Below the pieces are notes generated by a model. It made no database searches. It saw only the letters and a list, made by a program, of their open reading frames with translations, and was not told the DNA's origin. A stretch of 64,000 nucleotides of DNA from Vogesella sp. XCS3. Lineage in GTDB: Bacteria > Pseudomonadota > Gammaproteobacteria > Burkholderiales > Chromobacteriaceae. The position numbers and the translations under genes were made by a program. Positions 1-63,736 of the stretch are shown piece by piece. Location of the stretch: positions 2,664,501 to 2,728,500 of the forward strand of contig NZ_CP085530.1 in assembly GCF_020616155.1 (NCBI RefSeq), written 5' to 3'. Numbering within the stretch: the first letter of the stretch is position 1; each line of letters opens with the position of its first letter.

Positions 1-548
1 CCTACGAGCCCTATTCGCTGGTGATTCTGGACATCGGCCTGCCGCGTATGGACGGTTTCGAGGTACTGAAGCGCCTGCGCCGCCGTGGCAACCGTGTGCC
101 GGTGCTGGTGCTCACCGCACAGTCCGGCATCGATGCGCGGGTACACGGCCTGGACCTGGGTGCGGACGATTACCTGGGGAAGCCCTTCGAGCTGGCCGAG
201 CTGGAGGCTCGCGTGCGCGCCCTGCTGCGCCGCGCCCAGGGCAGCGAGGGCGGCGTGCTGCAGTGTGGCGAGCTGGTGTTCGAGCCGGCGCACAAGCGCT
301 TTGCCGTGTGCGGCCAACCTTTGGCGCTGACACCGCGCGAAATGGCGGTGCTGGAAGTGTTGCTGTACCGCCAGGGCAAGCCGGTGAGCAAAGAGGTGCT
401 GGCCGACCAGATCGTGCGGCTGGACCAGGACCTGAGCCCGGATGCCATGGAAATCTACGTGCACCGCCTGCGAAAGAAGCTGGCTGGTAGCGGTGTGGCC
501 ATCCTTACCCTGCGCGGGCTGGGTTATATGCTGGACGTGGCCAAATGA
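1..548 (+). CDS. OmpR-family response regulator, TctD-like (5' end missing)
   Basis: The gene enters from outside the window; the frame is open from base 3. What remains is the second half of the receiver domain, with the phospho-acceptor Asp in the ILDIGLPRMDGF motif and the conserved Lys in ADDYLGKPFE, then a winged-helix DNA-binding domain (LTPREMAVLEVLLYRQG, IYVHRLRKKL). It is the transcription factor partner of the sensor kinase that follows; the stop and the kinase ATG share ATGA, so the two are translationally coupled. The kinase resembles TctE, which suggests control of tricarboxylate or other organic-acid uptake, but no transporter gene is visible here. Confidence 0.93.
   Translation, partial: YEPYSLVILDIGLPRMDGFEVLKRLRRRGNRVPVLVLTAQSGIDARVHGLDLGADDYLGKPFELAELEARVRALLRRAQGSEGGVLQCGELVFEPAHKRFAVCGQPLALTPREMAVLEVLLYRQGKPVSKEVLADQIVRLDQDLSPDAMEIYVHRLRKKLAGSGVAILTLRGLGYMLDVAK
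310..321 (+). repeat. uptake-word copy GCGGCCAACCTT
   Basis: Exact copy of the recurring 12-mer, inside the response-regulator gene, read as Cys-Gly-Gln-Pro-Leu. Confidence 0.6.
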
Positions 549-1954
549 CACTCTCGCTGCGGCGCCAGCTGGTGCAATGGGTGGTGATCCCGCTGATCCC
601 GCTGGCGGCAGCCACAGCCTGGCTGGCGCAGGACAACGCGCGCGAGGCGGCCAACGCGGCCTTCGACCGCACCTTGCAGGCCTCGGCGCGCAGCATTGCC
701 GAGCGCATCGTGGTGCAGGATGGCGAGCTGGTGGTGGATATCCCGGTGGCGGCGCTGGAAATGTTCGACCCGCACTTCCAGGACCGCGTGTTCTACCGCA
801 TCGGCTTTGCCGGCGGTTCTACCATTACCGGCGACGCCGACCTGCCGCTGCCGGCCACCCTGCCCGGTGCCGGCGAGCTGCGTTTTTACGATGCCAGCTT
901 TCGCGACGAAGCCATCCGCAGCGTGGCGCTGGCGGTGCCGCTGTACTACGCCGGCAGCCAGCGCCTGCTGCTGGTGCAGGTAGGCGAGACCACGCTGTCG
1001 CGCGCCTCGCTGGCGCGGCGGCTGTTTACCGAATCACTGGCGCAGCAATGGCTGATCGGTGCGGTAGCGGCGCTGTTGGTGGCCATTGGCATCAACCGTG
1101 CGTTGCGCCCGCTGGGCCGCCTGCGCAGCACGCTCAAGGCGCGCGCCGGTGACCCGTCGCTGCAGCTGGACGTCGGCAGCGTGCAAAAAGAGCTGCAGCC
1201 GCTGGTGATGGCGCTGAACACCGCGCTGTCCGAGCTGGAAAACCAGCTGTCCATCCGCCAGCGCTTTATTGCCGACGCCGCCCACCAGCTACGCACACCG
1301 CTTACCCTGCTGAAAACCCAGGCCGAATACACCCAGCGCCAGCCCGACCCCGCCGAGCAGCAAGCCGGGCTGGCGGCGCTGGTGCACTCTACCGACCAGG
1401 TGATTCGCCTGGCCAACCAGCTGCTGGCGCTGTCGCGGGCAGAGCCCGGCCCGGCGCAGCACGACACCCGCGAGCTGGACGTGGCCGAGCTGGCGCGCGA
1501 AGTCACCATGGACTTTGTCATGGTGGCGCTGGATAAGGCGCTGGACTTGGGCTACGAAGGCGACGATAGCGCCCTGCTGTGCGGCCAACCTTTGTTGCTG
1601 CGCGAAATGCTGTCCAACCTGATCGACAACGCCGTGCGCTACACGCCGCCCGGGGGCGAGATAACGATATCCGCCTGGCAGCGCGGTGGCGAAGTCGAGC
1701 TGGTGATCAGCGATAGCGGCCCCGGCATTCCGCCAGAAGAGCAATCGCTGGTGTTCGAGCGCTTTTACCGCGGCCAGCAGGCGGGTGGCGATGGTTGCGG
1801 CCTGGGGCTGGCCATCGTGCGCGAGATCGTGCGTGGCCATGCCGGACAAATAAGGCTGGAGTCTGGCAGCGTGGGCGGTTTGCGCATTGTCATTACCTTG
1901 CCACGCCAGCCGCCGCTACCACCCGGTGACACGTTACACTCCGGCCTGCACTGA
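545..1954 (+). CDS. TctE-like two-component sensor histidine kinase
   Basis: 469 residues. A first membrane segment lies near residues 10-28 and a second near 165-185, bracketing a periplasmic sensor region of the 2CSK_N type. HAMP follows, then the dimerisation/phospho-acceptor motif ADAAHQLRTPLTLLK with the His, an N box (LSNLIDNAVRYTPPGG), a G1 box (ISDSGPGIP) and a G2 box (GCGLGLAIV). All catalytic motifs are present, so it should autophosphorylate and pass phosphate to the upstream regulator. ATGA overlap with that gene supports the start. The ligand cannot be told from sequence; citrate-like acids are the guess from the TctE resemblance. Confidence 0.93.
   Translation: MTLSLRRQLVQWVVIPLIPLAAATAWLAQDNAREAANAAFDRTLQASARSIAERIVVQDGELVVDIPVAALEMFDPHFQDRVFYRIGFAGGSTITGDADLPLPATLPGAGELRFYDASFRDEAIRSVALAVPLYYAGSQRLLLVQVGETTLSRASLARRLFTESLAQQWLIGAVAALLVAIGINRALRPLGRLRSTLKARAGDPSLQLDVGSVQKELQPLVMALNTALSELENQLSIRQRFIADAAHQLRTPLTLLKTQAEYTQRQPDPAEQQAGLAALVHSTDQVIRLANQLLALSRAEPGPAQHDTRELDVAELAREVTMDFVMVALDKALDLGYEGDDSALLCGQPLLLREMLSNLIDNAVRYTPPGGEITISAWQRGGEVELVISDSGPGIPPEEQSLVFERFYRGQQAGGDGCGLGLAIVREIVRGHAGQIRLESGSVGGLRIVITLPRQPPLPPGDTLHSGLH
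1581..1592 (+). repeat. uptake-word copy GCGGCCAACCTT
   Basis: Exact copy inside the sensor-kinase gene, again read as Cys-Gly-Gln-Pro-Leu, although this protein is unrelated to the response regulator that carries the same peptide. Confidence 0.6.
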
Positions 1955-1975
1955 CCCACGGAACCCCTCAATACC

Positions 1976-4900
1976 ATGCCCCTGCGCCCACGATACCTGC
2001 TTGCCACCCTGCCCTTGCTGGCGCGCCCCGGCCTGGCGGCAGAGCGGGGTGTGCACCTGCCCGGGCCGTGGCTGCTCAGTGCCGCGCTGGCGGTACTGGC
2101 GGGCGGGTTGTTGTGGCTGGCCTGGCGCCGCCACCGCCATGCCCAGGCACTGCAAGCACAGCACCGGCGCATGCAGAACCAGCAGGCCACCTTGTTGCAA
2201 AGCCTGGGGGAAGGCGTGTGGGGCTCGGATATGGACGGGCGCTGCATCTTTGTGAACGACGCGGCACTCTCCATGCTGGGCTATACCCGCCAGGAGCTGG
2301 CACAGCGCAGCGCCCACGAGCTGGTACACCACCATTACCCGGATGGCCGCCCCTATCCGGTGGCCGACTGCCCGGTGACGCAAACCATGCTGGACGGCCA
2401 GCCGCGCTCTTGTGACGAATACCTGATCTGCAAGGACGGCAGCTTTCTGCCGGTGTGGCTGACGGTAACGGCCCTGTGCGAGGAAGGCTGCCAGACCGGC
2501 GTGGTGACCACCTTCAAGAATATCCGTGCCCAGAAAGCGGCCACCCAGCAGATTCACCGCCTCAACCAGGCCTACGCGGCCTTGTCGTTTACCAACCAGA
2601 CCATTGTGCGCGAGCAAGACCCGCAGCGCCTGTTCGAGCGTATCTGCGAGATTGCCGTACAGCACGGCGGCCAGCGCATGGCGTGGATAGGCCGGCACGA
2701 TGCCGACGGGCAATACCTGCAGCCTCTGGCTGTGTACGGTAGTGGCGCGGCGTACCTGGACGAGATTACCGTGTGGACTCGCCCGGACAAAACCGAAAGC
2801 CGCGGCGCGGCCTCGCGCGCGGTACTCGAGCAGCAGCCGGTGGTGATCCCCAGTTTTCGCGAGCTGGCGCGCCAGCTACTGGCCGGGCAGCCAGACCTGG
2901 CCGAGCAATGGGCACAGCGTATCGAGCGTTTTGGCTGGGGCGCGACGGCTGCGTTTCCTATCCGCTACGGGGGGGACGCAGAGCTGGTGCTGGCGGTGTA
3001 CTACGGTGCCGATTTCGAATTTGACCAACAGCTGGTCGACCTGTTTAGCGAAATGGCCAGCGATATTGGCTACGCGCTGGACCGCATCGCCATGCAGCAA
3101 GAGCAGGTACGCAGCCGGCGGCTGGAAGAAACCCGCGCCTTTTTGCTGGAGTGCATGAGCAGCGACCCGCCGCTACTGCAGGGCCTGCAACGGGTGGCCA
3201 GCTATCTGCAAACCCTGCTACAGCGCCGTTGTACTTTCCGCCTGCCGGATGATACGGCTCCGCCACCGGCAGGCTGTCTATGCCTGCCAGTTCCTGCGCT
3301 GGATGGCCATATGCTGGTCGAGCTGTATATCGAAGGCCAGGCCGACGAAGCACTGGACCCGCACGACGAGCATTTGCTGCACAGCGTATGCCATCTGGTG
3401 GCGCTGGCCATAGAGCGCAAGCAGGCGGTGACCCGGCTGCAGTTGGCCGCCAGCGTATTCAGCCACTCCAGCGAAGGCATCATGCTCACCACTCCGCAGG
3501 GGCAGATCGTGGAGGTAAACCCGGCGTTCTCGCGCATTACCGGCTACCCGCGGGAAGAGGTGCTGGGGCATAACCCGAATATGCTGTCATCCGGGCGGCA
3601 CGACGATGACTTTTACCAGCAAATGTGGAAAACCCTGCGCGAGCAAGGCTTGTGGCAAGGCGAGATCTGGAACCGCCGCCGCGACGGCAATAGCTACCCC
3701 GAGCTGCTGACTGTGTCGGCCGTGTACGATAGTAGCGGCCAACTTAGCCATTACCTGGGCGTGTTCTCCGATATCTCCTTGCTGAAACAACAAGAAGCCC
3801 GCTTGCAAAGAATGGCGTACTACGACGCGCTCACCGAGCTGCCCAACCGCGTGCTGCTGGCCGACCGTATGCAGCAGGCGCTGGCATATACGCGGCGTAG
3901 CCAGCATCTCTTGGGCGTCTGCTATCTGGACCTGGATGGCTTCAAGCCGGTAAACGACCGCTACGGCCACCAGATGGGCGACCGCGTGCTGGTGGCGCTG
4001 GCCGAGCGCCTGCGCCAGCTGGTACACGGCGGCGATACCGTGGCGCGGCTAGGCGGGGACGAGTTCGTGATTCTGCTTACCGAGCTGGCCAGCCCGGCGC
4101 AATGCGAGCACGCACTACAAAGCCTGCTGCACGAAATCGCCCGCCCCTTGCAGCTGGGCGAGCTGCAGTTGCAACTGACCGCCAGCATCGGCGCTACGCT
4201 ATTCCCCTACGACGACTGCGACGCCGATACCCTGCTGCGCCACGCCGACCAGGCCATGTACCAGGCCAAGCAGCAGGGGCGCCACCGTTACCAGCTGTTT
4301 GACAGCCAGCAGGCGCGCCAGCAGCGCAACCACAGCGAACAGCAAGCCCGGGTTGGCGATGCGCTGGCGGGGGGCGAGCTGTGCCTGTATTACCAGCCCA
4401 AGGTCAATATGCAGGATGGCCGCATCGTGGGCGCCGAGGCGCTGCTGCGCTGGCAGCACCCGGCGCTGGGTCTGTTGCTGCCGGGGGCATTTTTGCCGCT
4501 GATCGAGGACAGCCCCCTGATTGTCAGCGTGGGGCAATGGGTGATCGATACCGCGCTGGCCCAGCTGGCCATGTGGCAGCGCGAAGGCCTGCCGCTGACC
4601 GTGAGTGTGAATGTGGCCGCCAGCCAGCTGCAACAGCCCGACTTTGCCGCGCAGCTGGCCCACAGTCTGGCGCGCTACCCGGCGCTGTTACCGCAGTATC
4701 TGGAGCTGGAAATCCTGGAAAGCGCGGCCTTGCACGATATGGATCAGGTATCCGAGGTGATGCAGGCTTGCCAGGCGCTGGGCGTGAGCTTTGCGCTGGA
4801 TGACTTTGGCACCGGCTATTCGTCCCTGACTTACTGCAAACGCTTGCCGGCATCGTTGCTGAAGATAGACCAGTCTTTTGTGCGCGACATGCTGGTAAAC

Positions 4901-5131: not shown

Positions 5132-5163
5132 ACGCTGCCGGGCCAGGGTTGGCCGCAAAACAA

Positions 5164-6887: not shown

Positions 6888-6990
6888 TTAGCCTGTCAGC
6901 AGCCGTGCGGCCAACAGCACGAAGCCTGCGGCCAACCATGGCCGCCAGCGCGGCTCCAGCAGTGTGGCCGGCGCGCCGAGCAGCAGTCAG
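6888..6990 (-). pseudogene. possible remnant of a membrane-protein 3' end
   Basis: A short minus-strand frame reads LLLGAPATLLEPRWRPWLAA, then GFVLLAARLLTG and a stop. It is preceded at once by in-frame stops and has no start. The hydrophobic, gene-like composition suggests the decayed tail of a membrane protein. The rest of 6870-7050 shows no gene. It contains two partial copies of the uptake-like word. Confidence 0.2.
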
Positions 6991-7116: not shown

Positions 7117-9195
7117 TTACAGCCGGAAGTTGCTCACCAGCCGCTCCAGGTTGCCAGACAGCTCGCGCAGCTGTTCTACCTCGCTGCGTACCTCGCGTGC
7201 GATGTCGCTGTTGGTATGCGCCATATTGCTGATGCGCTCTACGTTCTGCGCGATTTCGGTGGTCGCGCTGGATTGCTCGCGTGTGGACGAGGCAATGTCG
7301 CCAATCGACATCACCAGGGTGTGGCTCTTTTCCTGCACGGTTTGCATGGCCTGGTTGGCCGCATGGGCAATGTCCACGCTGACGGCGACCAGGTCGCGGC
7401 TATGTTTTACGTCGGCCACCGCATCACTGGTTTCGCTGCCGATGGCGTTGACGATACGGCTGATTTGTACGGTGGCTTCGGCGGTGCGCCCGGCCAGGTT
7501 GCGTACTTCGTCGGCTACCACGGCAAAGCCCCTGCCCTGCTCGCCGGCACGGGCGGCTTCGATGGCGGCGTTCAGCGCCAGCAGGTTGGTCTGGTCGGCA
7601 ATGTCCTTGATCACGTTGACGATGGTATTGACCTCTTGCGAGCGCTCGCCCAGCGCGCCCATGCGGTCGGCCAGCGCCTGCATGCTGCTGGTCATGCGCT
7701 GGATCTCGTCGGTCACCTGGCCCACGGTAGCGACACTCTTCTCGGTAAGCTGGCCGGTTTCGCGCACGATACCTTCGGCGTCGCTGGCCGAGTTGGCGAT
7801 GTGCTGTACGCTGACGGTGACCTCCTCTACCCCGGCGGCGGTGGCGCTGGCCGCGTCGGATTGCTGCGCCGAGGCCTGTTCCACCTTGATGGCGCTGTCG
7901 GCCAGCTGGCCGGCGCTGCGGCTCACGGCCAGGCTCTGCTCGCGAACGTCGATGAACATCTCGCGCAGGCTATCGATAAAGCGGTTGAAGGCGTCGGCGG
8001 TGTGGCCGATTTCATCGCGGTTGCTCACATTGATGCGTACGGTCAGGTCGCCCTTGCCGCTGGCCAGCTGCTCCATGGTGTTGGCCAGGGTATTCAGCGG
8101 GCGGGTCAGCGCGCGTACGACGGCAGCCAGTACCAAGAGGATGATGACCAGGGCCACCACGCCGATGATGATGGCCACATTGCGCTGGCTGGCCGCCGAC
8201 TCGGTAATGGCCGCGGTGGGGATAGCAACGCCTGCCGACCAGAACTGGCCGGTTTCACCCACCTTGATCGGGTAGAAAAAGTGGGTGAAGCCGCCGTCTT
8301 CATAAACAAAGCTTTCGCCCTTTTTCACTTGTTCGATATGGCTGCTCAGCACGTCTTCCTTGGCTAGCGGTTTACCCACCAGGCCTGCATCTGGGTTCAC
8401 CACGTACAGCCCGCCTTCGGACACCATGCGCACAAAGCCGGTTTCATACAGTTTCACACTGCCGTATTTCTTCTGCAGGGTGTCCAGTGCCAGGTCGGCC
8501 GCTGCCACGCCCAGGAATTTGCCGGATTTATCCTTGATGGCAACGGCCAGCGAGCTTTCCAGTACCTGTTTGCCCTGTACTTCGTAGAAGAAAGGCTCGG
8601 TAATGGTGTCGCGGCCACGGGTTTTCGGTACGTAGTAGAAGTCACCCCAGCCTGGCTTGTCGTAGTCGGGCACGTATTCGGTCAGTTTGTCTTTCCACTC
8701 GGGGAATTTTTCCACCCGGTCTTTGGACATCATCACGTCTTGTGCCGCTTTGCCATCGCTGCCGCGTGTCATGTACGGGCTGTAACGGCCGGAGGGGTCG
8801 TGACGCGGCCAGTCCAGGCGGAAGGCATCGTCTTTGCCGTCCAGGGCATTGGGTTCGTACAGCATCCACATGCCGATGATCTGGGGCTCGGCATCCAGCA
8901 GGTTGAGAATGGTGTTGTCGATGACCTTGCGGTCTACCACGCCGGCGCGCTGCATGCCCGCCACCGCATCAGCCAGGTGCTTGGGCGTGGCAAAGCCACG
9001 GCTGAGGTCACCCGTTACCGCATCGGCAAAACGCCCGGCCTGCTCTGATGCCAGCTGGTAGCCCTGTTCCTTGGCCGAGTCATAGCTTTGCTTGGCGATC
9101 AGGCCGATCATGCTGCTGAATCCCACCGCAATGGCTACGCCAGCCACCACAATAATGCGGTTACCCAGGTGTCCCCACTTGGCTGTTTTTCCCAT
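7117..9195 (-). CDS. methyl-accepting chemotaxis protein with dCache sensor
   Basis: 692 residues from ATG 9195, chosen because AAGGA lies just before it; the open frame extends further but without a ribosome site. A first membrane helix (about 13-37) is followed by a large periplasmic dCache_1 region (about 40-330, with [18 protein letters not shown]). A second helix (about 345-367), HAMP, and a cytoplasmic signalling domain with the hairpin tip [20 protein letters not shown] follow. No C-terminal receptor-methylation pentapeptide. It should signal through CheA/CheW to the flagellar motor; small-molecule ligands such as amino acids are typical for dCache but the ligand is unknown. Confidence 0.94.
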
Positions 9196-10783: not shown

Positions 10784-10819
10784 AATGCGGCCAACCCTGG
10801 TGCCAGGGTTGGCCGCATT
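10784..10819 (+). terminator. hairpin built from two inverted uptake-like words
   Basis: A perfect 17-bp inverted repeat (AATGCGGCCAACCCTGG and its complement, two bases apart) between two convergent genes. It is made of GCGGCCAACCCT facing its own complement. No strong T tract. Confidence 0.6.
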
Positions 10820-13933: not shown

Positions 13934-14278
13934 TTAGCCCAGTGCGCGGCTGCCGTCTGCCGGGTACTTGCGGGCGTTCTTCTGCAGCTTGTCGGCCACG
14001 GCGGCGTTCAGGTCCACGCCTGTCACATCGGCCAGTCGCACCAGGTACATCAGCACGTCGGCCAGCTCTTCCTGCAAGTGGGTGTACTCGGCCGGGTTGG
14101 CCGCAAGGTTGGCGGCCTCGGCGTCGGTCTTCCACTGGAAGATCTCGGCCAGCTCGCCCACTTCGCCGGTTAGCGCCAGCATCAGGTTGCGCGGGGTGTG
14201 AAACGGTTGCCACTGGCGGGCGGCGGCAAATTCGCGCTGGGCGGCGATCAGGCCGTCTACGTTCACAAGGTGGGTCAT
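13934..14278 (-). CDS. MazG-like nucleotide pyrophosphohydrolase (dCTPase type)
   Basis: 114 residues from ATG 14278, with AAAGGA seven bases before it. The all-alpha NTP-PPase signature is present: LTGEVGELAEIFQW and EELADVLMYLVRLAD, the Glu/Asp set that binds magnesium. It resembles RS21-C6/DCTPP1 proteins, which hydrolyse dCTP and modified pyrimidine dNTPs to keep the nucleotide pool clean. It lies 86 bases upstream of cpdB on the same strand and could be cotranscribed. Confidence 0.9.
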   Translation of the reverse strand: MTHLVNVDGLIAAQREFAAARQWQPFHTPRNLMLALTGEVGELAEIFQWKTDAEAANLAANPAEYTHLQEELADVLMYLVRLADVTGVDLNAAVADKLQKNARKYPADGSRALG

Positions 14279-14334: not shown

Positions 14335-14357
14335 GTGGTAGCGGGCAAGTTGGCCGC

Positions 14358-14966
14358 TTACAGCAGGCCTTCTTCCTTCATGGCCTGTTGCACCGCCGGG
14401 CGGGCAAAGATGCGGGTGCTAAAGGCCTGCAGTGCCGGCCAGGCGTCCAGGCTGCGGCCAACGTATTTGCTCCACGACAGGCACACGAACAGGTAGCCGT
14501 CGGCCACGGTGTAGCTATCGCCCAGCAGGTAGTCCTGCTGGCCCAGCGTGCTGTTGAGCGCATCAAAGCGCGTGGTCAGGCGCTGCCAGGCGGCGTCTTT
14601 TACCGCCTCGTCCTGGCTGTGGAACAGCGGCGAGAAGCCCTTGTGCACTTCGGTGGAGATGAAGTTCAGCGCTTCTTGCAGGCGGTAGCGAGCCAGCGTA
14701 CCGTTGGCCGGGGCCAGGTTTTTCTCGGGTGCCTGGTCGGCAATGTACTGCACCAGCGCCGGGCCTTCGGTAAGGATCTCGCCGTTATCCAGCTGCAGCG
14801 CCGGTACGTAGCCCTTGCTGTTGATGGCGCGGAAGTCGGCGCCGCTTTCGGTGAGGCGCGGCTCGGCGCGCAGGTTCACTTTTTCGAACTGGTACGGCAG
14901 GCCGCTTTCTGCCAGGGCAATGTGCGGGGACAGCGAGCAGGCACCGGGGGAGTAGAACAGTTTCAT
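14358..14966 (-). CDS. glutathione S-transferase, beta-class type
   Basis: 202 residues. The thioredoxin-like N-terminal domain begins MKLFYSPGACSLSPHIAL, with the beta-class cysteine in GACS; GYVPALQLDNGEILTEG holds the cis-Pro and the glutathione-binding residues. The alpha-helical C-terminal domain follows (GDSYTVADGYLFVCLSW). Cytoplasmic detoxification by conjugating glutathione is the expected role; the substrate is unknown. AGGAT precedes the start. Confidence 0.93.
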   Translation of the reverse strand: MKLFYSPGACSLSPHIALAESGLPYQFEKVNLRAEPRLTESGADFRAINSKGYVPALQLDNGEILTEGPALVQYIADQAPEKNLAPANGTLARYRLQEALNFISTEVHKGFSPLFHSQDEAVKDAAWQRLTTRFDALNSTLGQQDYLLGDSYTVADGYLFVCLSWSKYVGRSLDAWPALQAFSTRIFARPAVQQAMKEEGLL

Positions 14967-19122: not shown

Positions 19123-19160
19123 TGCGGCCAACCTTGCCGTGCTGGCGAAGGTTGGCCGCA
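19123..19160 (-). terminator. hairpin of two inverted uptake words after the TonB receptor
   Basis: TGCGGCCAACCTT and AAGGTTGGCCGCA, 12 bases apart, directly follow the receptor stop. Both are exact 12-mer copies. No T tract, so termination strength is uncertain. Confidence 0.55.
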
Positions 19161-26274: not shown

Positions 26275-26286
26275 GCGGCCAACCTT
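26275..26286 (+). repeat. uptake-word copy GCGGCCAACCTT (intergenic)
   Basis: Exact copy spanning the stop region of the DUF3291 gene. Confidence 0.6.
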
Positions 26287-49654: not shown

Positions 49655-49721
49655 GCTGCTTGCTTTCTGGTTTGGTGAGGGTTGGCCGCACGCGGCGGCC
49701 GGCAGTGTGGGTGGGCTATCG

Positions 49722-52794: not shown

Positions 52795-53838
52795 TCAGCG
52801 CTGCGGCGGCTCCGCAGCGCTTTGGGCATGAATCAGCCATTGCCCATGTTGCCGGGTGACAGCCAGTGGCAACACGCGTGGCAGCGCGTGGGCAAACTGT
52901 GCCGGCTGGTAGGCGTTGAAGGTACCGGTAAGGCGCAGCTGCCCGCTGGCAGGGTTTTGCAGCTGTAGCTGGCTGGGCCCGTAGCGGTTGAACTCGGCGA
53001 TGACCTCGGCCAGTGGCGTGTTATCGAATAACAGGCGCCCGCTGCGCCAGGCGGCCACGGCGGCCGGCGGAACCGGCGTGATGTGGCTTAGCCGTGTGCT
53101 GTTGCTGGCCAGCTGCTGCCCCGCCTGCAAGGTGGCTTGCTGCAACGGCTGGCGGTCGGCGTCGGCGTCGTGGCGGTTGCTGTACTGGCGCACCCTTACC
53201 TTGCCTTCGGCCACGGCCACCTGATAGTTGCGGCCAACCTGGCGCACGCTGAAACGGGTACCCAGTACGGTGACGCGGCGGCTGTCGGCCAGCACGTGAA
53301 AGGGGCGCTGTTTGTCTGGTGCTACCTGGAAAAACGCTTGTCCGGCCAGCAGGCGGGTATCGCGTTGCTGGCGGTACAGGGTAACGTCCACCCGGGTGGC
53401 GCTATCCAGGCTAAGCCGGCTGCCATCGGGCAGGGTCACGTCGCGCTGCTCGCCCTGTGCGGTGACCAGGCTGGCCTGGTACAACGGTTGCTGCTGTTGC
53501 CATTGCTGCCAGCCCAGGCCGCCAGCGATGGCACAGCACAGGCAGGCGGCTGCGGCCAGGGGCAAGCGGTTGCGCCGTGGTGGCAGGGCTTGCAGCATAG
53601 GGGGCAGCTGTTGGCGCAGGGCATCGCGCTGTGCCGCGCTGGCGCTGCCCAGCAGGCTGTCCAGCGCGTGCAGCTGTTGCCAGGCTTGCGCGTGGGCCGG
53701 GTGGGCTGCCAGCCATTGCTGTAGCGCAGCGTGCTGCTGTGGCGATAGGCCCTGCTGCTGGCGCAGTAACCATTGTGCCGCCTGGTAGTCGATGCTGTCT
53801 GGCGCGGGCGTTGCGGGGGTGAGCGGCGTTGTGTTCAT
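52795..53838 (-). CDS. FecR-family regulator of the heme system
   Basis: 347 residues from ATG 53838, overlapping the sigma gene by ATGA. N-terminal DUF4880 part (DYQAAQWLLRQQQG), one membrane helix (LPLAAAACLCCAIAGGLGW), FecR domain (VTLPDGSRLSLDSATRV, RRVTVLGTRFSVRQ) and C-terminal secretin-like tail. Relays the heme-receptor signal to the sigma factor. Confidence 0.93.
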   Translation of the reverse strand: MNTTPLTPATPAPDSIDYQAAQWLLRQQQGLSPQQHAALQQWLAAHPAHAQAWQQLHALDSLLGSASAAQRDALRQQLPPMLQALPPRRNRLPLAAAACLCCAIAGGLGWQQWQQQQPLYQASLVTAQGEQRDVTLPDGSRLSLDSATRVDVTLYRQQRDTRLLAGQAFFQVAPDKQRPFHVLADSRRVTVLGTRFSVRQVGRNYQVAVAEGKVRVRQYSNRHDADADRQPLQQATLQAGQQLASNSTRLSHITPVPPAAVAAWRSGRLLFDNTPLAEVIAEFNRYGPSQLQLQNPASGQLRLTGTFNAYQPAQFAHALPRVLPLAVTRQHGQWLIHAQSAAEPPQR

Positions 53839-56070: not shown

Positions 56071-56118
56071 AAAAGCCCGGCTGCGGCCAACCTTGCGGGT
56101 GGCGGCAGCCGGGCTTTT
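56071..56118 (-). terminator. terminator after the rRNA methyltransferase gene, with uptake word in the loop
   Basis: AAAAGCCCGGCTGC pairs with GCAGCCGGGCTTTT; an exact GCGGCCAACCTT (56083-56094) starts in the stem and runs into the 20-base loop. Confidence 0.75.
56083..56094 (+). repeat. uptake-word copy GCGGCCAACCTT (intergenic)
   Basis: Exact copy within the terminator described for 56071-56118. Confidence 0.6.
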
Positions 56119-57299: not shown

Positions 57300-58178
57300 A
57301 TGGAGCAGGCGCAGGCATTACTCAAGTCTTTATACGTGATGGCCATGATGGTGGAGGCGCGTGATGCCTATACCGGCGGCCATTTGTGGCGGGTGTCGCA
57401 ATTTGCCCGCCTGGTGGCCGAGCGCATGTCGCTGCCGCCGGACGAAGTAGCGCGCGTGGCGCTGGGCGGCTTTTTGCACGACCTGGGCAAGGTGGGCATT
57501 CCGGACGCGGTATTGAACAAGCGCGACCGGCTGACCGACGAAGAGTACGCCGTGATCAAGACCCACCCGCAGGTGGGTGCCGACCTGCTGGCCGGTCACC
57601 CGCTGGCGGCGCTGGCCATGGACGCGGTGTGGCTGCACCACGAAACGCCGGATGGCCGTGGCTACCCGCGCGGCCTGGCCGGGGCGGCTATCCCGCTGGT
57701 GGCGCGCATTGTCGGGGTGGTGGACGCGCTGGACGCCATGACCAGCTCGCGCCCCTACCGCGCCGGCATGCCGCTGGCCAAGGCGCTGCAGATCATCGAA
57801 GACAACCTGGGCGGGCAGTTTGACGCCGAGGTTGGCCGCATCGTGCTGGCACTGGGGCAGGAAGGCGCGCTGGATGCCGTCATCGGTCACAGCGCGCCGG
57901 GGCGGCCGTTGCAGCAGTGCGTGGCTTGCGGGCCTACGCTGGTGATGCATAGCGAGGTACAGGACGGCGACACCGTACATTGCCCGTCGTGTGCGATGGG
58001 CTACCACGTGCGCCACCAGGCGGGGCGCTGGCAGGTGGCGGCCACCGGTGCGGCCAACCCGGTGGCGGCGCGCCAGCCGCGGGCGGATACGCAGCTGATC
58101 GATAGCCTGGTGCAGCCGGCTTACCGCCTGCTGCCCAGGCCCAAACGCTGGCTGGGCTGGTTCGGCCCGTCGGCCTGA
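57300..58178 (+). CDS. HD-GYP phosphodiesterase with C-terminal zinc ribbon
   Basis: 292 residues with a strong AAAGGGGG ribosome site. The HD-GYP domain begins at once (RDAYTGGHLWRVSQFARL, FLHDLGKVGIPD, HHETPDGRGYPRGL, DALDAMTSSRPYR), all metal ligands intact. At about residue 205 a CVACG ... CPSC pair suggests a zinc ribbon, followed by a basic tail. It should hydrolyse c-di-GMP; the ribbon could bind nucleic acid or a protein partner. Confidence 0.92.
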   Translation: MEQAQALLKSLYVMAMMVEARDAYTGGHLWRVSQFARLVAERMSLPPDEVARVALGGFLHDLGKVGIPDAVLNKRDRLTDEEYAVIKTHPQVGADLLAGHPLAALAMDAVWLHHETPDGRGYPRGLAGAAIPLVARIVGVVDALDAMTSSRPYRAGMPLAKALQIIEDNLGGQFDAEVGRIVLALGQEGALDAVIGHSAPGRPLQQCVACGPTLVMHSEVQDGDTVHCPSCAMGYHVRHQAGRWQVAATGAANPVAARQPRADTQLIDSLVQPAYRLLPRPKRWLGWFGPSA

Positions 58179-58188: not shown

Positions 58189-58929
58189 TTACAGCGGCAG
58201 CTGGCGGCGTAGCTCGTCAGCCCAGTTGCGGCTGGCAAAGTCGGCGCCCATCACCAGCGAGCGGTAGAAGTCGCCGCCAAAGCGGGAATCCACCTCGATC
58301 AGTACGTGGGTTTCGTTGCCCCACGGCAGGAAGGTGAGCTCGATTTCCTGGATGCGGAAGTTGCCGCCACGCGGTTTGAGCTCCATTTCCTGATAGCAGC
58401 CCAGGGTGCTGGCCACATTGCCGATACGCGCGGTGCCCACTTCCACGTCGGTGCTGTACAGGCCCCAGCCCAGCTGCTCGAATGCGGCCAACAGCGCGGC
58501 TACCTGCGCGGTGGGGTGCACTTCCAGCAGGTCGCGGTCGCTGGCGTCCACGGCCGAGGCAATGGCCAGGTCGGTGTGGATCCACACCGCCAGCGGGCGG
58601 CCGTAGTGTGCCAGCGCGTTGATGGGGGTTTCGGCCGGCAGCTGCAGCTGGAAAGGGAACTGGCGGGTTTCACCGGCTTTTACCGTAAAGCGCTGGCTCA
58701 CCAGAATGCTGCCCAGCGGCAGCGCGCCGCGTACTTCGTGGTCGCCTGACTCCTGCTCTGCTTCCACCATCAAGACCAGCTCGATCTTTTCGATGTCCTG
58801 GTCGGCATTGCCGCCCTGTACCACCACGCGGCCGGTAAGCATGTCACCAGGGCGCAGGCGCGGGTTGTCCAGCTGGGTATCGACTTTGGCGCCACCGACG
58901 CCGATAGAGGCAAGCAGTTTCTTGAACAT
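58189..58929 (-). CDS. Spo0M-family (arrestin-fold) protein
   Basis: 246 residues from ATG 58929. Start FKKLLASIGVGGAKVDTQL, then the arrestin-like features PGDMLTGRVVVQGG and FPFQLQLPAETPIN. In Bacillus Spo0M influences sporulation and division; in non-spore-formers the role is unknown. Convergent with the HD-GYP gene. Confidence 0.9.
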   Translation of the reverse strand: MFKKLLASIGVGGAKVDTQLDNPRLRPGDMLTGRVVVQGGNADQDIEKIELVLMVEAEQESGDHEVRGALPLGSILVSQRFTVKAGETRQFPFQLQLPAETPINALAHYGRPLAVWIHTDLAIASAVDASDRDLLEVHPTAQVAALLAAFEQLGWGLYSTDVEVGTARIGNVASTLGCYQEMELKPRGGNFRIQEIELTFLPWGNETHVLIEVDSRFGGDFYRSLVMGADFASRNWADELRRQLPL

Positions 58930-59092: not shown

Positions 59093-61156
59093 TTACTTTT
59101 TAACCGGTGCTGCTTCCGGTGCCACGGCAGCGTTCAGCTGTGCCGACAGTTCGGTGAATACCTGGCTGGCGGCGGCCTTCATCTTGCTGGCCTTGGCCGA
59201 TGGTTTGGCGGTTTTCGCTGGGGTCGCGGCAGCTGGTGCTTCGGGGGCGGCGGCTTTGTCAGCCACTTTGGCCGATGGTTTGGCGGCTTTTACCGTGCGG
59301 CCAGCCAGTGCCGGGCGAACATAGACGACGTAGCGTTCGATCTCGGCCAGCAGCTTGCCCGGTACGTTCATGCGGCGGGACAGGTCCTGTGCACGCGCCA
59401 GCTGGGCGCGGCCCATGTCCTGTTCCAGCTGCGACAGGTTGTTGGCTGCCAGCGTGTCGCCCTGGGCGCGTGCCAGGTTATGCAACGCGTAGGACACGGT
59501 AGCGTCTTTCGGTACGCCCTGGCCGTAGTAGTACATCACGCCCAGGTTGTTCAGGCCGCCTACGTTGTACTGTGCGGCTGCCTTGCGGTACCAGGCCACA
59601 GCTTCGTCGTTGCTCTGTTTCACGCCCTGGCCGTTTTCGTACAGGCCACCCAGGCTGAACTGCGCATCGGCGTTACCGCTCTTGGCCGCTTTGCGGTACC
59701 AGTTGGCCGCTTGCTCGTAGTTCTGCTCGGTACCCTGGCCGTTGTAATACTGGGCGGCCAGCGCTACCTGTGCGGCGACGTTGTCCTGCGCGGCGGCTTG
59801 CTGGTTCAGGGCAAAGGCGCGTTTCGGGTCGAACGGTACGCCGTTGCCTTTCATGTGCAGTGCAGCCAGGCTGGCTTGCGCCTGCGCGTCGCCCTGTGCG
59901 GCTGCCTTGGCGTACCAGCTGGCGGCCTGCGCGTAATCCTGTGGCAGCTCGTTGCCCTTCTCGTACAGCTGCGCCAGGCTGGTTTGCGCGCCGGCGTGGC
60001 CCTGGTTGGCGGCCTTGTTGTACCACATGGCCGCATCGGCCAGGTCTTGTGCGGTGCCCTGGCCTTTTTCCAGCATCTGGCCCAGGCTGTACTGCGCGTT
60101 GGCATCGCCCTGCTCGGCGGCTTTCACGAACCAGCTGGCGGCCAGCTGTTCGGTAGCGCGACGGTGCCATACCGCGGCTTGTGCCGGGTCTTTCGGTACG
60201 CCCAGCCCGCTCTGGTACAGGTTACCCAGCACGGCCTGTGCATTCGGGTGGCCCTGAACGGCGGCTTTGCGGAACCAGTTGGCCGCATTCACGTAATCCT
60301 GCTCTACGCCACGGCCCTGCTGGTACATCTGCGCCAGGCTGAACTGGGCATCGGCGTCGCCTTGCTCGGCGGCCTTGGCAAACCATTCGGCGGCGGCGGT
60401 GTAGTCTTGCGGTACGCCTACGCCGTTATGGAACATGGTGGCCAGGCTGGATTGCGCTTCGACATAACCCTGCTCGGCGGCTTTGCGGAACCACTTGGCG
60501 GCTTCTACCGGGCTTTTTTCTACGCCACGGCCTTGTTGGTACTGCACACCCAGGTTGTACTGCGCCTGGGCGATGCCTTGTTCGGCGGCTTTACGGTACA
60601 GGGTGGCGGCCTGGGCGGCGTTGGACGGGATGCCGGTGCCGTTTTGTACCATGTCTGCCAGGTTGGTTTGTGCCTGGGCGTTACCGCTCTTGGCGGCTTT
60701 GCGGTACCAGTAGGCGGCACCGGTAACATCCAGCTGCTGCACGCGGCCGCTCTGGTACAGGGCGGCCAGGTTGGTTTGCGCAACGGTATTGCCCTGCTCG
60801 GCGGCCTTGCGGTACCAGCTGGCGGCGGTGGCCAGGTCTTGTGTTACGCCATTGCCTTTTTCGTACAGCTGGCCCAGGTTCAGCTGTGCATCGGCGTAGC
60901 CTTGCTCGGCGGCTTTGCGGTACCAGTTGGCCGCCTGTTCCAGGTTTACCGGTGTACCCAGGCCTTTGCGATACAGCTCGCCCAGCTGGTATTGCAGGCT
61001 GGCGTTGCCCTGCTCGGCTGCCGGCGTCCACTCGCGCAGTGCCGCGGCAAAGTCACCCTTGTTGAAGGCGGTACGGCCTTCCTTGATACCGGCAAAGGCC
61101 GGTGCGGCAAGCATCAGGCTGGTAACAATGACAGTCGTTGCGAGGCGTTTTTTCAT
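59093..61156 (-). CDS. exported Sel1-repeat protein
   Basis: 687 residues. Signal peptide (1-22, ending PAFA), then about 14 Sel1 repeats of about 36 residues, each like AANWYRKAAEQGYADAQLNL, from residue 35 to about 560. One repeat near the middle is cut short (HRRATEQLAASWFVKAA). A helical part and an Ala/Lys/Pro-rich tail with two SAK-type repeats follow. Probably a periplasmic scaffold for protein contacts. No partner can be named. DNA repeats here are coding, not mobile. Confidence 0.9.
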   Translation of the reverse strand: MKKRLATTVIVTSLMLAAPAFAGIKEGRTAFNKGDFAAALREWTPAAEQGNASLQYQLGELYRKGLGTPVNLEQAANWYRKAAEQGYADAQLNLGQLYEKGNGVTQDLATAASWYRKAAEQGNTVAQTNLAALYQSGRVQQLDVTGAAYWYRKAAKSGNAQAQTNLADMVQNGTGIPSNAAQAATLYRKAAEQGIAQAQYNLGVQYQQGRGVEKSPVEAAKWFRKAAEQGYVEAQSSLATMFHNGVGVPQDYTAAAEWFAKAAEQGDADAQFSLAQMYQQGRGVEQDYVNAANWFRKAAVQGHPNAQAVLGNLYQSGLGVPKDPAQAAVWHRRATEQLAASWFVKAAEQGDANAQYSLGQMLEKGQGTAQDLADAAMWYNKAANQGHAGAQTSLAQLYEKGNELPQDYAQAASWYAKAAAQGDAQAQASLAALHMKGNGVPFDPKRAFALNQQAAAQDNVAAQVALAAQYYNGQGTEQNYEQAANWYRKAAKSGNADAQFSLGGLYENGQGVKQSNDEAVAWYRKAAAQYNVGGLNNLGVMYYYGQGVPKDATVSYALHNLARAQGDTLAANNLSQLEQDMGRAQLARAQDLSRRMNVPGKLLAEIERYVVYVRPALAGRTVKAAKPSAKVADKAAAPEAPAAATPAKTAKPSAKASKMKAAASQVFTELSAQLNAAVAPEAAPVKK

Positions 61157-61347: not shown

Positions 61348-62319
61348 TTATTTGCGTTGCGTGGGCGGCTTGTCGGCTTGTTGCAGCAGCTGGCGGGCGT
61401 TTTCCAGCAGCGCGCGGCCCTGGCTTTCGCGCTGGCTGCTGATGTACAGCCAGCCCAGCGCCTGCTGGGTGATGGCGTAGGCGTGGTGCTGGTTGCCCAG
61501 GTTCAGCGCCAGCAGAGTGAGGGCTTGCTGGTATAGCGCCTCGGCGCTGGGGTAGTCCTGCAGGTAGTGGTAGCAGTAAGCCAGCTCGCGCGTAATGATG
61601 GCCGCGTGCAGGCCGTCGGCGTTGCCGCGCCGCGTTTCGCCGTCCAGCGCGCTTTGCAGCAAGCCTATGGCGCGCTCGTATTGCTTTTGCTGCTGCAGTG
61701 CCGCGCCCAGGCGGGCCTGGGTGTAAAGCGTGTCGGGGTGGTCGGCGGGTAGTAGTGCCTGGCGTATGGCCAGTGCCTGCGTCAGGTAGTTGGCCGCTTT
61801 CTCCGGCTGTTGCTGCTGCTGGTAAAACAGGCCCAGCGTATGGCGCGAGTCTGCTGCCGGCAGGCTGGTTTTGCCTGCCAGGCTTTCCCGTACCTGCAAA
61901 GCCGTCTGTAGCTGCGTTTCGGCCGCTGCCGGCTGGCCTGCCTGCGCCAGCAGTCGGGCGTAGGCTTGCTGCGATTCGGCTACCAGCAGGTGGTTCGGCC
62001 CAAAAGCCTGCTGGCGCAGCGCCAGCGCCTGGCTGGCAGCTACGAGGGCGGCGGCGGTTTGCTGGCGGCTGCGCAGCACAAATTGCAGCCGGTGCAATAT
62101 ATCCGCCTGCAGCGCCGGCTGGCTGGCCGGTGCGCGTGCCAGCAAGGCGCGCAGCTGCTGCTCGGACTCCTCCAGCTTGCCCTGCATGGCCGGGCGGGCG
62201 CTGTTTTCCAGCAGGGCCGGTCAGTCGTCCCCGCTGCTGTCAGGCATGGCAGCTACCTGGCCCAGGGCCAGGACGGGTAGCAGTAACAGCAGGGGTAAGG
62301 TGACGCGGGGCTGGGTCAT
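61348..62319 (-). pseudogene. exported TPR protein interrupted by an in-frame TGA
   Basis: ATG 62319 starts a signal peptide (TLPLLLLLPVLALGQVAA) that runs to a TGA at 62221-62223 (codon 33). The same frame continues as PALLENSARPAMQGKLEESE and a long tetratricopeptide array (AESQQAYARLLAQAGQPAAA, LGLFYQQQQQPEKAANYL, LAYCYHYLQDYPSAEALYQQ) to the stop at 61348. So a single stop codon separates export signal from body. Either a recent nonsense mutation, a sequence error, or re-initiation at ATG 62187 giving a cytoplasmic 279-residue protein. Confidence 0.7.
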
Positions 62320-62442: not shown

Positions 62443-63678
62443 ATGCCCAGCCCAGCCCGCCTCGTTCGCCCCGCCCTGCTCGCCGCCGCGCTGTGTGCGG
62501 CCAACCTTGCTGTTGCCGCCCAGCCCGCCAGCGCACCGTTTACCCCGGCGCAGCAGCAGGCCATCCGCCAGATCAGCGCCAGTGCCGCCCAGGCGCAAGT
62601 GCCGCTGGTGGCCAGTGCGGCTGCTGCCAGCGTGGCCAAAACTATCGAAGGCGAAAAGCAGGCCATCGATGTGGCCAAGGACGCGCTGGAAGTTGGCCGC
62701 AAGTCGGTGGATTGGTGGCTAACGGCTCTAGGCTTGGTTATGGCTTTGGCAGGTATCGGTCTGTCCGTCTGGTTGAGCCGTAAGCATGATGAAGTAGAGG
62801 TCAAACTGAAGGAGGCTGATGCTGCTAAGCAGAAAGCTGAGATTGCTTTGCGCCACGCAGAGCAGTTGATTGAAAATTTCAGCAAGCAAGCCAGTCTCAT
62901 TCCGAATGCTGATGCAATCTCTGACAAGCTATCGGCCGATGTTCTTGAAAAACTCAAAATGGTAAAGCCACCACAGGTAGTCAAACTGATTGAGCAGGCA
63001 TGGGCCGCGCACCATCAAAAAAACTGGGTTATAGCTAAACCACTATGGGAGCTACTCAGCTTGATCGAGAGTCAGGATGCCAACGTCTGGTTCAACCTGG
63101 CGTATGCCGAACAGCATGCAGGTAAAGACTTCCAGCTCATTTGTGATGGATACCAGCGTTCACATCTTTTGGAGCCGTCCGCGGAAGCCAGCAACAACTG
63201 GGGCAATGCCTTGTCGGATTGGGCTAATACCCTGACGGGCGAGGCACAGCAGCAGCGTTTTGCCGAGGCCGATCAGCGCTATGCCGAGGCAAACCGCCTG
63301 AAACCGTACTTTGCTGAGGCCTACTCTAACTGGGGCAATGCCTTGTTGGATTGGGCGCTTACCTTGCAAGGTGACGAGCGGCAAACCAAGCTTGCCAGAG
63401 CTGAAGAAGTACTACTACTAGCGAAGAATAAGGGTGCGAAGAGCAGCCACTACAACCTCGCCTGCCTGCGCGCCGTACAACAGCGCCCCGACGAAGCCTG
63501 CACATTGTTGAAAGAAACGTATGCCTTGTTGGATGAAATCCGCACCGCCGGTTTGGTGCCCGACTTTGCCCACCTGAGCACCGACCCCCATCTGGAGAAT
63601 CTGCGCGGGCTGGACTGGTTCCAGGCGCTGCTGGAGCAGGTAAAGCAGCAAGAGGCGGGTAAGCAAGGTTCTACGTAA
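62443..63678 (+). CDS. membrane-anchored TPR-like protein
   Basis: 411 residues from ATG 62443. A signal-like N-terminus (LLAAALCAANLAVAA), a membrane helix (WWLTALGLVMALAGIGLSVWL, about 88-108, given in part), a coiled coil (EVKLKEADAAKQKAEIALRH) and then TPR-like repeats (SNWGNALLDWALTLQGDE) with a TPR end-of-group tail (HYNLACLRAVQQRPDEAC, HLENLRGLDWFQALL). From about 62700 to 63480 the GC content falls clearly below the neighbours, so the gene may be a chimera. An alternative start at 62404 exists. Divergent from the broken TPR gene. Confidence 0.75.
   Translation: MPSPARLVRPALLAAALCAANLAVAAQPASAPFTPAQQQAIRQISASAAQAQVPLVASAAAASVAKTIEGEKQAIDVAKDALEVGRKSVDWWLTALGLVMALAGIGLSVWLSRKHDEVEVKLKEADAAKQKAEIALRHAEQLIENFSKQASLIPNADAISDKLSADVLEKLKMVKPPQVVKLIEQAWAAHHQKNWVIAKPLWELLSLIESQDANVWFNLAYAEQHAGKDFQLICDGYQRSHLLEPSAEASNNWGNALSDWANTLTGEAQQQRFAEADQRYAEANRLKPYFAEAYSNWGNALLDWALTLQGDERQTKLARAEEVLLLAKNKGAKSSHYNLACLRAVQQRPDEACTLLKETYALLDEIRTAGLVPDFAHLSTDPHLENLRGLDWFQALLEQVKQQEAGKQGST
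62497..62508 (+). repeat. uptake-word copy GCGGCCAACCTT
   Basis: Exact copy in the signal-peptide part of the TPR-like gene, read as Ala-Ala-Asn-Leu. Confidence 0.6.
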
Positions 63679-63700
63679 ACATTGGTACTGTTTTCATCGC

Positions 63701-63736
63701 AAAAAGGTTGGCCGCATCGCTGCGGCCAACCTTTTT
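63701..63736 (+). terminator. Rho-independent terminator made of two inverted uptake words
   Basis: AAAAAGGTTGGCCGCA, TCGC loop, TGCGGCCAACCTTTTT. Two exact 12-mers (63704-63715 minus, 63722-63733 plus) form the stem, and the run of T completes a bidirectional terminator between the convergent TPR-like and thiC genes. Confidence 0.9.

Follow-up and report, generated by a model that had tools for sequence, protein, structure and literature searches.

A candidate DNA uptake sequence of Vogesella and related dialects in its family

What maintains a 12-bp word that recurs on both strands of a bacterial chromosome, inside genes as well as between them? The question is raised by a window of 64,000 nucleotides (the whole stretch of DNA analysed, C1:2664501-2728500) in the genome of Vogesella sp. 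XCS3 (G000; 3.89 Mb, two contigs), in which an initial annotation made from the sequence alone proposed that the word GCGGCCAACCTT is a new DNA uptake sequence. The proposal has held up: counts were far above Markov expectation beyond the window, and competence genes were present in the genome. Judging from sequence comparisons, we consider it very probable that the word serves Vogesella as its DNA uptake sequence, belongs to a set of at least three family dialects and is read by a ComP-like minor pilin.

Abundance, placement and conservation of the word

All fifteen exact copies of GCGGCCAACCTT that had been claimed were found at the given place and strand (Table 1). Dinucleotide shuffles of the window contained 0.01 copies on average and 1 at most, in line with the initial estimate of a chance expectation far below one. 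The dozens of copies said to share a shorter core correspond to 68 occurrences of GCGGCCAAC (2.9 ± 1.5 in the shuffles), and in a k-mer scan of the window TGCGGCCAAC ranked top among all 10-mers, with 44 copies for 0.76 expected. A home-made gene caller placed seven of the 15 exact copies between genes; several codon frames are represented, as had been noted, with CGQP(L), KVGR and AANL all found under 12-mers. The unit itself needed revision: the copies of the 12-mer are real, but the conserved element is a T followed by GCGGCCAAC and a degenerate CTT tail, not a fixed 12-mer.

The excess extends over the genome, and on both strands. The whole genome holds 548 exact 12-mers (262 and 286 by strand) and 2,279 copies of TGCGGCCAAC (1106 and 1173), compared with 0/0 and 3/8, respectively, for the reversed words that served as specificity control for word counts. 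In a 444-kb chromosome sample, made up of 19 stretches and the window, TGCGGCCAAC occurs 305 times for 2.35 expected under a third-order Markov model with the sites masked, an excess of about 130-fold. The site profile is strict over GCGGCCAAC, favours a T before it and then C, T and T with fading strength, and is flanked by positions that are almost information-free. A halo of one-mismatch copies had been expected; such copies were few in Vogesella, except at the word ends, and the Neisseria-type control likewise had few. On the second contig (164.5 kb, about 52% GC) there are 4 copies (0.84 expected), which corresponds to 0.024 per kb compared with 0.61 per kb on the chromosome. The sparsest of the 19 chromosome samples (G000:C1:3400001-3420000), with 8 copies of GCGGCCAAC in 20 kb, is possibly a horizontally acquired island.

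For comparison we used a family set of 61 genomes, 13 of Vogesella and 48 others (G000-G446 and g4-g9 are genome and genus labels within the genome set used). The taxonomy used treats them as one family; NCBI taxonomy places Vogesella and Pseudogulbenkiania subflava in the Chromobacteriaceae and Crenobacter in the Neisseriaceae. The prediction that related genomes would carry hundreds to thousands of copies was borne out in all 13 Vogesella genomes, with 1,871-2,895 copies of TGCGGCCAAC each; counts were 8-58 in the 48 other family genomes and 2-58 in 28 others of the first genome panel. In a set of 369 genomes spanning 272 genera of the class, where G000 was the sole genome of its family, CGGCCAACCTT reached 558 copies in G000 and at most 5 in each of the 368 others. 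Loci of V. alkaliphila and V. oryzae, found through the FtsK of the window, matched genomes assigned to its genus without a difference for 5.4 and 5.8 kb, which identifies that genus as Vogesella. These two loci, each of roughly 22 kb, contained 13 and 17 copies, and those of Aquitalea, Chromobacterium, Pseudogulbenkiania, Crenobacter, Paludibacterium and Burkholderia type in the same FtsK-based scan contained 0-1. A record named Beta proteobacterium L13 (L031) carries the Vogesella word at 15 copies per 22.8 kb and an FtsK 94% identical, and probably belongs to Vogesella because of this Vogesella-like density and FtsK identity.

In the 444-kb sample, where the gene caller predicted 402 genes (87.8% coding), 205 of the 305 TGCGGCCAAC sites are genic and 100 intergenic, which makes the word 3.5 times denser in intergenic DNA (1.85 vs 0.53 per kb). 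Genic sites are evenly oriented (101/104) and occupy all six frame-orientation classes, the commonest peptides beneath them being AAN, LAA and VGR. For the 9-mer, intergenic density was highest between convergent genes (4.42 per kb), lower where the neighbours run in tandem (2.37) and lowest between divergent ones (0.47). Inverted pairs at gene ends had been reported in the window and were confirmed there (9-mer starts 10787/10808, 19124/19151, 34990/35011, 40855/40864 and 63707/63722). Among 425 9-mers, the 33 neighbouring pairs within 60 bp comprised 32 inverted and 1 direct (p 8e-9). Of the 30 inverted pairs with starts at most 35 bp apart, 27 were intergenic, all of them adjoining at least one gene 3' end, and none lay between divergent genes; the 30 pairs have predicted folding energies of -13.2 to -30.5 kcal/mol.

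The sites are also conserved. At three loci of the same genus with long synteny, 21/22, 16/18 and 14/18 sites were intact in alignable places, and control words near the sites were intact at fractions of 0.59, 0.38 and 0.30. In another two Vogesella loci, where the alignment covered only 2 kb, 1/2 and 0/1 sites were kept; five loci from other genera each retained 0/1. Third codon positions within sites were conserved in 48/48, 42/42 and 37/39 cases, compared with 43.8, 32.0 and 29.9 expected when the same codons off-site served as reference (z 2.2, 4.0 and 2.9). Conservation of the sites and of their synonymous positions therefore argues that the DNA word itself is maintained, in agreement with the initial suggestion that selection acts on DNA and not on protein.

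Sister words in the family and their register with Neisseriaceae sequences

The initial annotation described a single uptake word. The word is real, and the wider comparison places it among at least three family dialects, beyond what the window alone could show. A word with TT where Vogesella differs, TTCGGCCAAC, was first met by k-mer counts in a Pseudogulbenkiania locus and in the locus of a metagenome-assembled genome (MAG) labelled Aquitalea. It reaches 183-2,168 copies in eight of the 61 family genomes, from five genera: 2,168 in G014, 1,851 in G021, 1,368 in G017 (the Aquitalea-labelled MAG), 1,245 in G016, 1,104 in G013, 893 in G022 (P. subflava), 579 in G023 (Crenobacter oryzisoli) and 183 in G446. 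The next-ranking family genomes have 78, 77, 62 and 45. The CT word, CTCGGCCAAC, was found in a 200-kb sample of G024 (136 copies for 1.4 expected), a genome that we take to be Crenobacter cavernae from a pilin identical over its full length. It is present in 1,940 copies in G024 and 1,590 in G015, both genomes of genus g4; elsewhere it occurs 165 times in G023 and 92 and 85 times in two genomes of g8, with no more than 67 copies in any of the remaining family genomes.

All three words share CGGCCAAC and a soft CTT tail. Spelled on the other strand they read AGGTTGGCCGCA in Vogesella (TGCGGCCAACCT in the window), AGGTTGGCCGAA in the TT group (P. subflava, C. oryzisoli, the Aquitalea-labelled MAG and five more genomes) and AGGTTGGCCGAG in C. 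cavernae and one relative. A dialect is present at 183 copies or more in 23 of the 61 family genomes, and the dialects track genera: the Vogesella word occurs in 13/13 genomes of its genus, the CT word in both g4 genomes and the TT word in eight genomes, including one of ten in g6 (Aquitalea). No dialect reached 183 copies in the other 38 genomes, namely 9/10 of g6, 19/19 of g7, which we take to be Chromobacterium, 6/6 of g8 and 4/4 of g9. Samples of 200 kb from single genomes of g7 (G431), g6 (G272) and g8 (G441) yielded no comparable word. The top word of G431, CAGCGCCAGC, was rejected as an uptake sequence, with 85 copies for 12.7 expected, only a 7-fold excess, compared with 60- to 100-fold for the dialects. 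As a positive control we counted the classical DNA uptake 10-mer of Neisseria type, GCCGTCTGAA, across the order: of 399 genomes, 8 had 1,863-4,285 copies and one more had 247, the next having 68; all nine belong to one genus, presumably Neisseria.

Several genomes stand apart. C. oryzisoli (G023) carries two words, 579 copies of TTCGGCCAAC and 165 of CTCGGCCAAC, perhaps a dialect switch in progress; it resembles in this respect the Simonsiella muelleri genome, for which two dialects are described in Frye et al (2013; PMC3630211). Two g8 genomes, G442 and G444, show a slight excess of the TT and CT words (62/92 and 45/85, compared with 11-21 for reversed words), which may be the decaying relics of a lost uptake sequence. 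The MAG G017, with its 1,368 copies of TTCGGCCAAC compared with 11-36 in the nine other g6 genomes, may belong to a genus separate from Aquitalea. The taxonomy used assigns each of three named Crenobacter species to a different genus, with no word in C. caeni (G438), the CT word in C. cavernae and the TT word in C. oryzisoli, and Crenobacter therefore looks polyphyletic.

On the other strand, the form common to the words is AGGTTGGCCG followed by AA, CA or AG, which is in register with the DNA uptake sequences (DUS) of the Neisseriaceae. Published dialects of the latter include AGGCTGCCTGAA (sim), AGGTCGTCTGAA (muc), AGGCAGCCTGAA (king), AGGCTACCTGAA (eik) and AGGCCGTCTGAA (AG), as cited in PMC7371117 and PMC12061091. 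The initial annotation had remarked that the word lacks the CTG core of the DUS; the core is indeed missing, but the remark had been made on the opposite strand, and read as AGGTTGGCCGCA the word falls into register with them. We compared both strands at all shifts with seven dialects, leaving out wadDUS, the eighth published one, and with 20,000 shuffles. AGGTTGGCCGAA is identical to AG-simDUS and AG-mucDUS at 9/12 positions without any shift.

The likeness to the DUS extends to a length of about 12 bp, thousands of copies on both strands, genic and intergenic sites, inverted pairs after genes, related dialects one or two bases apart between genera, and the presence of a ComP-related minor pilin, PilQ and ComEC. 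The A-to-C change of Vogesella at position +9 is located where king3DUS departs from kingDUS, as given in PMC3630211. The words differ from the DUS in having CCG for the CTG core, a T at position 4 that mucDUS alone of the seven dialects shares and a G at position 7 that has no match in any of them, and in occurring in other genera. Pasteurellaceae represent another family in another order. Their uptake signal sequence (AAGTGCGGT and its dialects) is likewise a short abundant tag with dialects that is found in predicted terminators, according to PMC13020248 and PMC12616744, but the word is unrelated and its receptor is predicted in the latter to be PpdA/ComN.

Competence genes and the ComP-like pilin

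The type IV pilus and ComP-type genes that had been expected are present: PilQ, ComEC and a ComP-like pilin were all found in G000. PilQ (TIGR02515, E 1.1e-139) is part of an aroB-aroK-pilQ-P-O-N cluster, in which pilP, pilO and pilN are presumed from their position. ComEC (C1:3479369-3480139, E 6.1e-53) was found in 59 of the 61 family genomes, the misses being two Vogesella drafts, G002 and G008 (one of 330 contigs, one 88% complete). The ComEC protein family also matches 10 of 14 control genomes, E. coli included, and ComEC is thus necessary but not sufficient. A pilin operon (G000:C1:109933-112631) encodes GspH- (FimT-like), PilW- and PilX-type members together with a PilE-like minor pilin.

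Three pilins of G000 belong to PF16732. Since this family is too general (it matches 39/41 genomes), we separated the paralogues by their solved relatives. The ComP-like pilin (C1:3106142-3106558, 138 aa), encoded beside aroB, scores above the PF16732 cut-off, and its best solved relatives by sequence, via the globular domain, are 2NBA, 2M3K and 5HZ7, all of them ComP. Matches of the other two are to PilE, via the globular domain, and to major pilins, chiefly via the N-terminal helix; the PilE-like pilin at C1:112281, which has the top PF16732 score, was thereby ruled out as ComP. In an AlphaFold2 model of P0003, a 94% identical homologue (11-row alignment, mean pLDDT 85), the sole significant PDB match was 5HZ7, N. 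meningitidis ComP (E 4.6e-05). A stronger ComP match was obtained for the pilin of G013 (P. subflava type; 2M3K, E 4.5e-13). Contigs G024:C1 and G001:C1 measure 3271667 and 4147242 bases in the genome set, each exactly 100 fewer than the protein database gives for contigs with the same pilins (3271767 and 4147342). Beside the third PF16732 pilin, four minus-strand open reading frames without NCBIfam match at 1e-10 (L140:3385-7384, G000:C1:2520385-2524384) possibly form a second pilin cluster.

We extracted ComP-like pilins from 50 of the 61 family genomes and used 49 in the tree and residue counts; 11 genomes with weak matches were left out, as was G442, whose extracted frame is not a pilin. 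By match ranking the 13 Vogesella pilins come first, followed by those of the eight TT and two CT genomes, with G015 approximately tied with the best word-less genome. In the tree, Vogesella forms one clade (100/100) on a long branch, and the TT pilins are scattered among the rest. A lysine in the loop [FY]K..(S/T)..WP.LP is present in 21/23 word-bearing and 0/26 word-less genomes, and N. meningitidis ComP has this lysine too.

Weighing the uptake reading and its alternatives

From these observations we infer the following sequence of events. The ComP-like minor pilin, as part of a type IV pilus, would bind the word in outside DNA; retraction of the pilus would draw the DNA through PilQ, ComEC would pass one strand inward, and recombination would insert tagged DNA of kin into the chromosome. 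Biased uptake and recombination would then maintain existing sites and spread new ones, and the inverted pairs after genes may have been reused as RNA hairpins, possibly terminators.

A number of results weigh against this reading or parts of it. Relatives of the ComP-like pilin occur in all 61 family genomes, and a pilin from the word-less genus g7 also has ComP as its top match (5HZ7, E 3.4e-07); because word-less genera keep it, presence of the pilin has no predictive value for the word. The loop-lysine contrast is suggestive, but it is inseparable from ancestry, with 1 to 3 independent pairs. The DD region of ComP has four cysteines in two disulfides, as described in PMC4906244, whereas the Vogesella-group pilin has one C-terminal cysteine pair and neither a DD region nor a second disulfide: two cysteines are present in the last 90 residues in 22/23 word-bearing genomes, three in the remaining one, and no aligned pilin has a cysteine at the GFCIR segment of ComP, taken to be C76. 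The match to the DUS was equalled by 180 of 20,000 shuffles of AGGTTGGCCGAA and by 440 of 20,000 for its 14-mer with flanks; the Vogesella and C. cavernae words reach 8/12 (equalled by 1,518 and 1,216 of 20,000) and the 10-mer GTTGGCCGAA reaches 7 (2,668 of 20,000), so that the similarity depends on the word chosen and appears only moderately significant. At the position of the CTG core, conserved and essential in the DUS according to PMC12061091, all three dialects have CCG. In a consensus terminator scan of window positions 10500-20000, both inverted pairs of that stretch went unflagged, so a role in termination finds weak support; an obvious T-run follows few of the 30 pairs by eye. The open-licence literature yielded no uptake, binding or competence experiment in Vogesella.

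The most serious competitor accepts an uptake sequence and assigns it to another receptor, a FimT-like (GspH-domain) or PilE-like pilin of the operon at G000:C1:109933-112631, with the ComP-like protein doing something else. The presence of three PF16732 pilins and a GspH-domain pilin, together with the lack of a DD region and the retention of the pilin by word-less relatives, would fit this account, but only the aroB-adjacent member of the three has ComP as its best solved relatives, and the ComP-like pilins of Vogesella form a single clade. We regard it as unlikely, though it deserves real weight. A signal of chromosome maintenance, such as Chi for RecBCD, an FtsK orienting polar sequence (KOPS) or the site of a nucleoid protein, seems improbable. 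Like the Chi and KOPS octamers, the word is short and over-represented; it occurs in thousands of copies across the chromosome and is nearly missing from the second contig, and ftsK itself lies in the window. Chi and KOPS are oriented with replication, however, and the Vogesella word has no clear orientation (192 sites on the G-rich strand and 233 on the other in the 444-kb sample, p 0.05). It also forms inverted pairs after genes, and the family has three dialects, none of them in 38 of its 61 genomes, yet FtsK in all 20 genomes checked. On grounds of orientation and of dialects across genera we rejected such a signal.

Inverted pairs that fold as hairpins might instead point to a repetitive extragenic palindromic (REP)-like or transposon-borne repeat, or to a terminator stem that has spread into genes. 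Conservation stops at the 12-mer, however, about two-thirds of the sites lie inside called genes in even orientation, and copies mostly stand alone (the 425 9-mers form 33 close pairs); with no longer conserved unit and a mostly genic distribution, we rejected this explanation as very improbable. Least credible of all, and close to negligible, is a preference for codons or codon pairs (Ala-Ala-Asn, Leu-Ala-Ala, Val-Gly-Arg) or a restriction-methylation site. The commonest peptides under the sites are those that a codon preference would favour, but it was rejected, as was a restriction site, given the intergenic excess and the better conservation of in-site third positions than of the same codons elsewhere; related genera of similar base composition show no excess either.

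We thus retain the reading of the word as a candidate uptake sequence with a ComP-like receptor. With moderate shuffle statistics and CCG in place of CTG, homology with the DUS is likely, although the words alone do not prove it. With CCG at the core and no DD region in the receptor, we do not class the words as canonical DUS; they probably represent a new group of DUS-type dialects sharing common descent with them. We lean slightly towards the view that the DUS predates the Neisseriaceae, an ancestor shared with the Vogesella/Pseudogulbenkiania/Crenobacter group having had the 12-mer AGGnnGnCnGAA and a ComP-type pilin, followed by changes of core, receptor and 3' end and by losses. The CTG core would have become CCG, with a receptor lacking the DD region and the second disulfide; the 3' end would then have switched from AA to CA in Vogesella and from AA to AG in C. 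cavernae, and g7, most Aquitalea, g8 and g9 would have lost the tag while keeping a changed pilin. On such an account the family would therefore display gain, switch and loss of uptake specificity.

Published abstracts mention uptake sequences in two families, Neisseriaceae and Pasteurellaceae. No earlier report of the present words was found among the matches listed from the open-licence literature (subscription papers, preprints and supplements being outside its scope). Among these matches, none of the papers containing the string GCGGCCAAC was about uptake by title, Aquitalea was not named in the literature on uptake sequences or natural transformation, and GGCCAAC appeared in at least four neisserial papers of the DNA uptake literature, with one or two occurrences each. 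Pseudogulbenkiania was met together with uptake sequences in Frye et al (2013) only, and a passage there (PMC3630211) reports that Pseudogulbenkiania, Lutiella, Laribacter and Chromobacterium have no obvious DUS. In contrast, we counted the sister word TTCGGCCAAC 893 times in P. subflava. Table S1D of the Frye 2013 study reportedly lists over-represented 10-mers for Pseudogulbenkiania and Lutiella, and may hold the TT word, unrecognised.

Since related genera carry variants that differ by one or two letters, the tagging system, whose best-known case is Neisseria, seems older and more varied than thought. Vogesella and its relatives are largely environmental bacteria, and such a group would give safe models for the origin, switching and loss of uptake specificity. 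With three dialects as well as word-less lineages in one receptor family, natural variation could reveal base-to-residue rules; the CCG in place of CTG also puts the claim of an indispensable core to the test. Adding the word to a DNA fragment may ease transformation of Vogesella and relatives.

Table 1. Copies of the 12-mer and of the 9-mer core in the window.
Word	Position	Strand	Context
12-mer GCGGCCAACCTT	310..321	+	CGQPL frame
12-mer GCGGCCAACCTT	1581..1592	+	CGQPL frame
12-mer GCGGCCAACCTT	12921..12932	+	KVGR, antisense to gene
12-mer GCGGCCAACCTT	19124..19135	+	left arm of inverted pair, intergenic
12-mer GCGGCCAACCTT	19148..19159	-	right arm of inverted pair, intergenic
12-mer GCGGCCAACCTT	21920..21931	+	KVGR
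12-mer GCGGCCAACCTT	26275..26286	+	intergenic
12-mer GCGGCCAACCTT	26645..26656	-	AANL
12-mer GCGGCCAACCTT	37972..37983	+	RGQPL
12-mer GCGGCCAACCTT	39603..39614	-	intergenic
12-mer GCGGCCAACCTT	48132..48143	+	KVGR
12-mer GCGGCCAACCTT	56083..56094	+	intergenic
12-mer GCGGCCAACCTT	62497..62508	+	AANL
12-mer GCGGCCAACCTT	63704..63715	-	left arm of inverted pair, intergenic
12-mer GCGGCCAACCTT	63722..63733	+	right arm of inverted pair, intergenic
9-mer GCGGCCAAC	647..655	+	
9-mer GCGGCCAAC	3442..3450	-	
9-mer GCGGCCAAC	3735..3743	+	
9-mer GCGGCCAAC	5148..5156	-	
9-mer GCGGCCAAC	6907..6915	+	
9-mer GCGGCCAAC	6928..6936	+	direct pair with 6907
9-mer GCGGCCAAC	7354..7362	-	
9-mer GCGGCCAAC	10787..10795	+	left arm of inverted pair between convergent genes
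9-mer GCGGCCAAC	10808..10816	-	right arm of inverted pair with 10787
9-mer GCGGCCAAC	14096..14104	-	
9-mer GCGGCCAAC	14349..14357	-	
9-mer GCGGCCAAC	14454..14462	+	
9-mer GCGGCCAAC	16191..16199	-	
9-mer GCGGCCAAC	16546..16554	-	
9-mer GCGGCCAAC	20086..20094	-	
9-mer GCGGCCAAC	20655..20663	-	
9-mer GCGGCCAAC	21127..21135	-	
9-mer GCGGCCAAC	23381..23389	+	
9-mer GCGGCCAAC	25667..25675	+	
9-mer GCGGCCAAC	27239..27247	-	
9-mer GCGGCCAAC	31207..31215	-	
9-mer GCGGCCAAC	31325..31333	+	
9-mer GCGGCCAAC	32750..32758	-	
9-mer GCGGCCAAC	33100..33108	-	
9-mer GCGGCCAAC	33872..33880	+	
9-mer GCGGCCAAC	34655..34663	+	
9-mer GCGGCCAAC	34990..34998	+	left arm of inverted pair
9-mer GCGGCCAAC	35011..35019	-	right arm of inverted pair with 34990
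9-mer GCGGCCAAC	36768..36776	+	
9-mer GCGGCCAAC	37270..37278	-	
9-mer GCGGCCAAC	37382..37390	+	
9-mer GCGGCCAAC	38244..38252	+	
9-mer GCGGCCAAC	39262..39270	+	
9-mer GCGGCCAAC	40855..40863	+	left arm, abutting inverted pair
9-mer GCGGCCAAC	40864..40872	-	right arm, abutting inverted pair with 40855
9-mer GCGGCCAAC	41323..41331	+	
9-mer GCGGCCAAC	41520..41528	-	
9-mer GCGGCCAAC	43893..43901	+	
9-mer GCGGCCAAC	45426..45434	-	in ftsK
9-mer GCGGCCAAC	46348..46356	-	in ftsK
9-mer GCGGCCAAC	47437..47445	-	in ftsK
9-mer GCGGCCAAC	49681..49689	-	
9-mer GCGGCCAAC	50982..50990	-	
9-mer GCGGCCAAC	52325..52333	-	
9-mer GCGGCCAAC	53230..53238	+	
9-mer GCGGCCAAC	57831..57839	-	
9-mer GCGGCCAAC	58050..58058	+	
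9-mer GCGGCCAAC	58484..58492	+	
9-mer GCGGCCAAC	59702..59710	-	
9-mer GCGGCCAAC	60278..60286	-	
9-mer GCGGCCAAC	60926..60934	-	
9-mer GCGGCCAAC	61789..61797	-	
9-mer GCGGCCAAC	62692..62700	-

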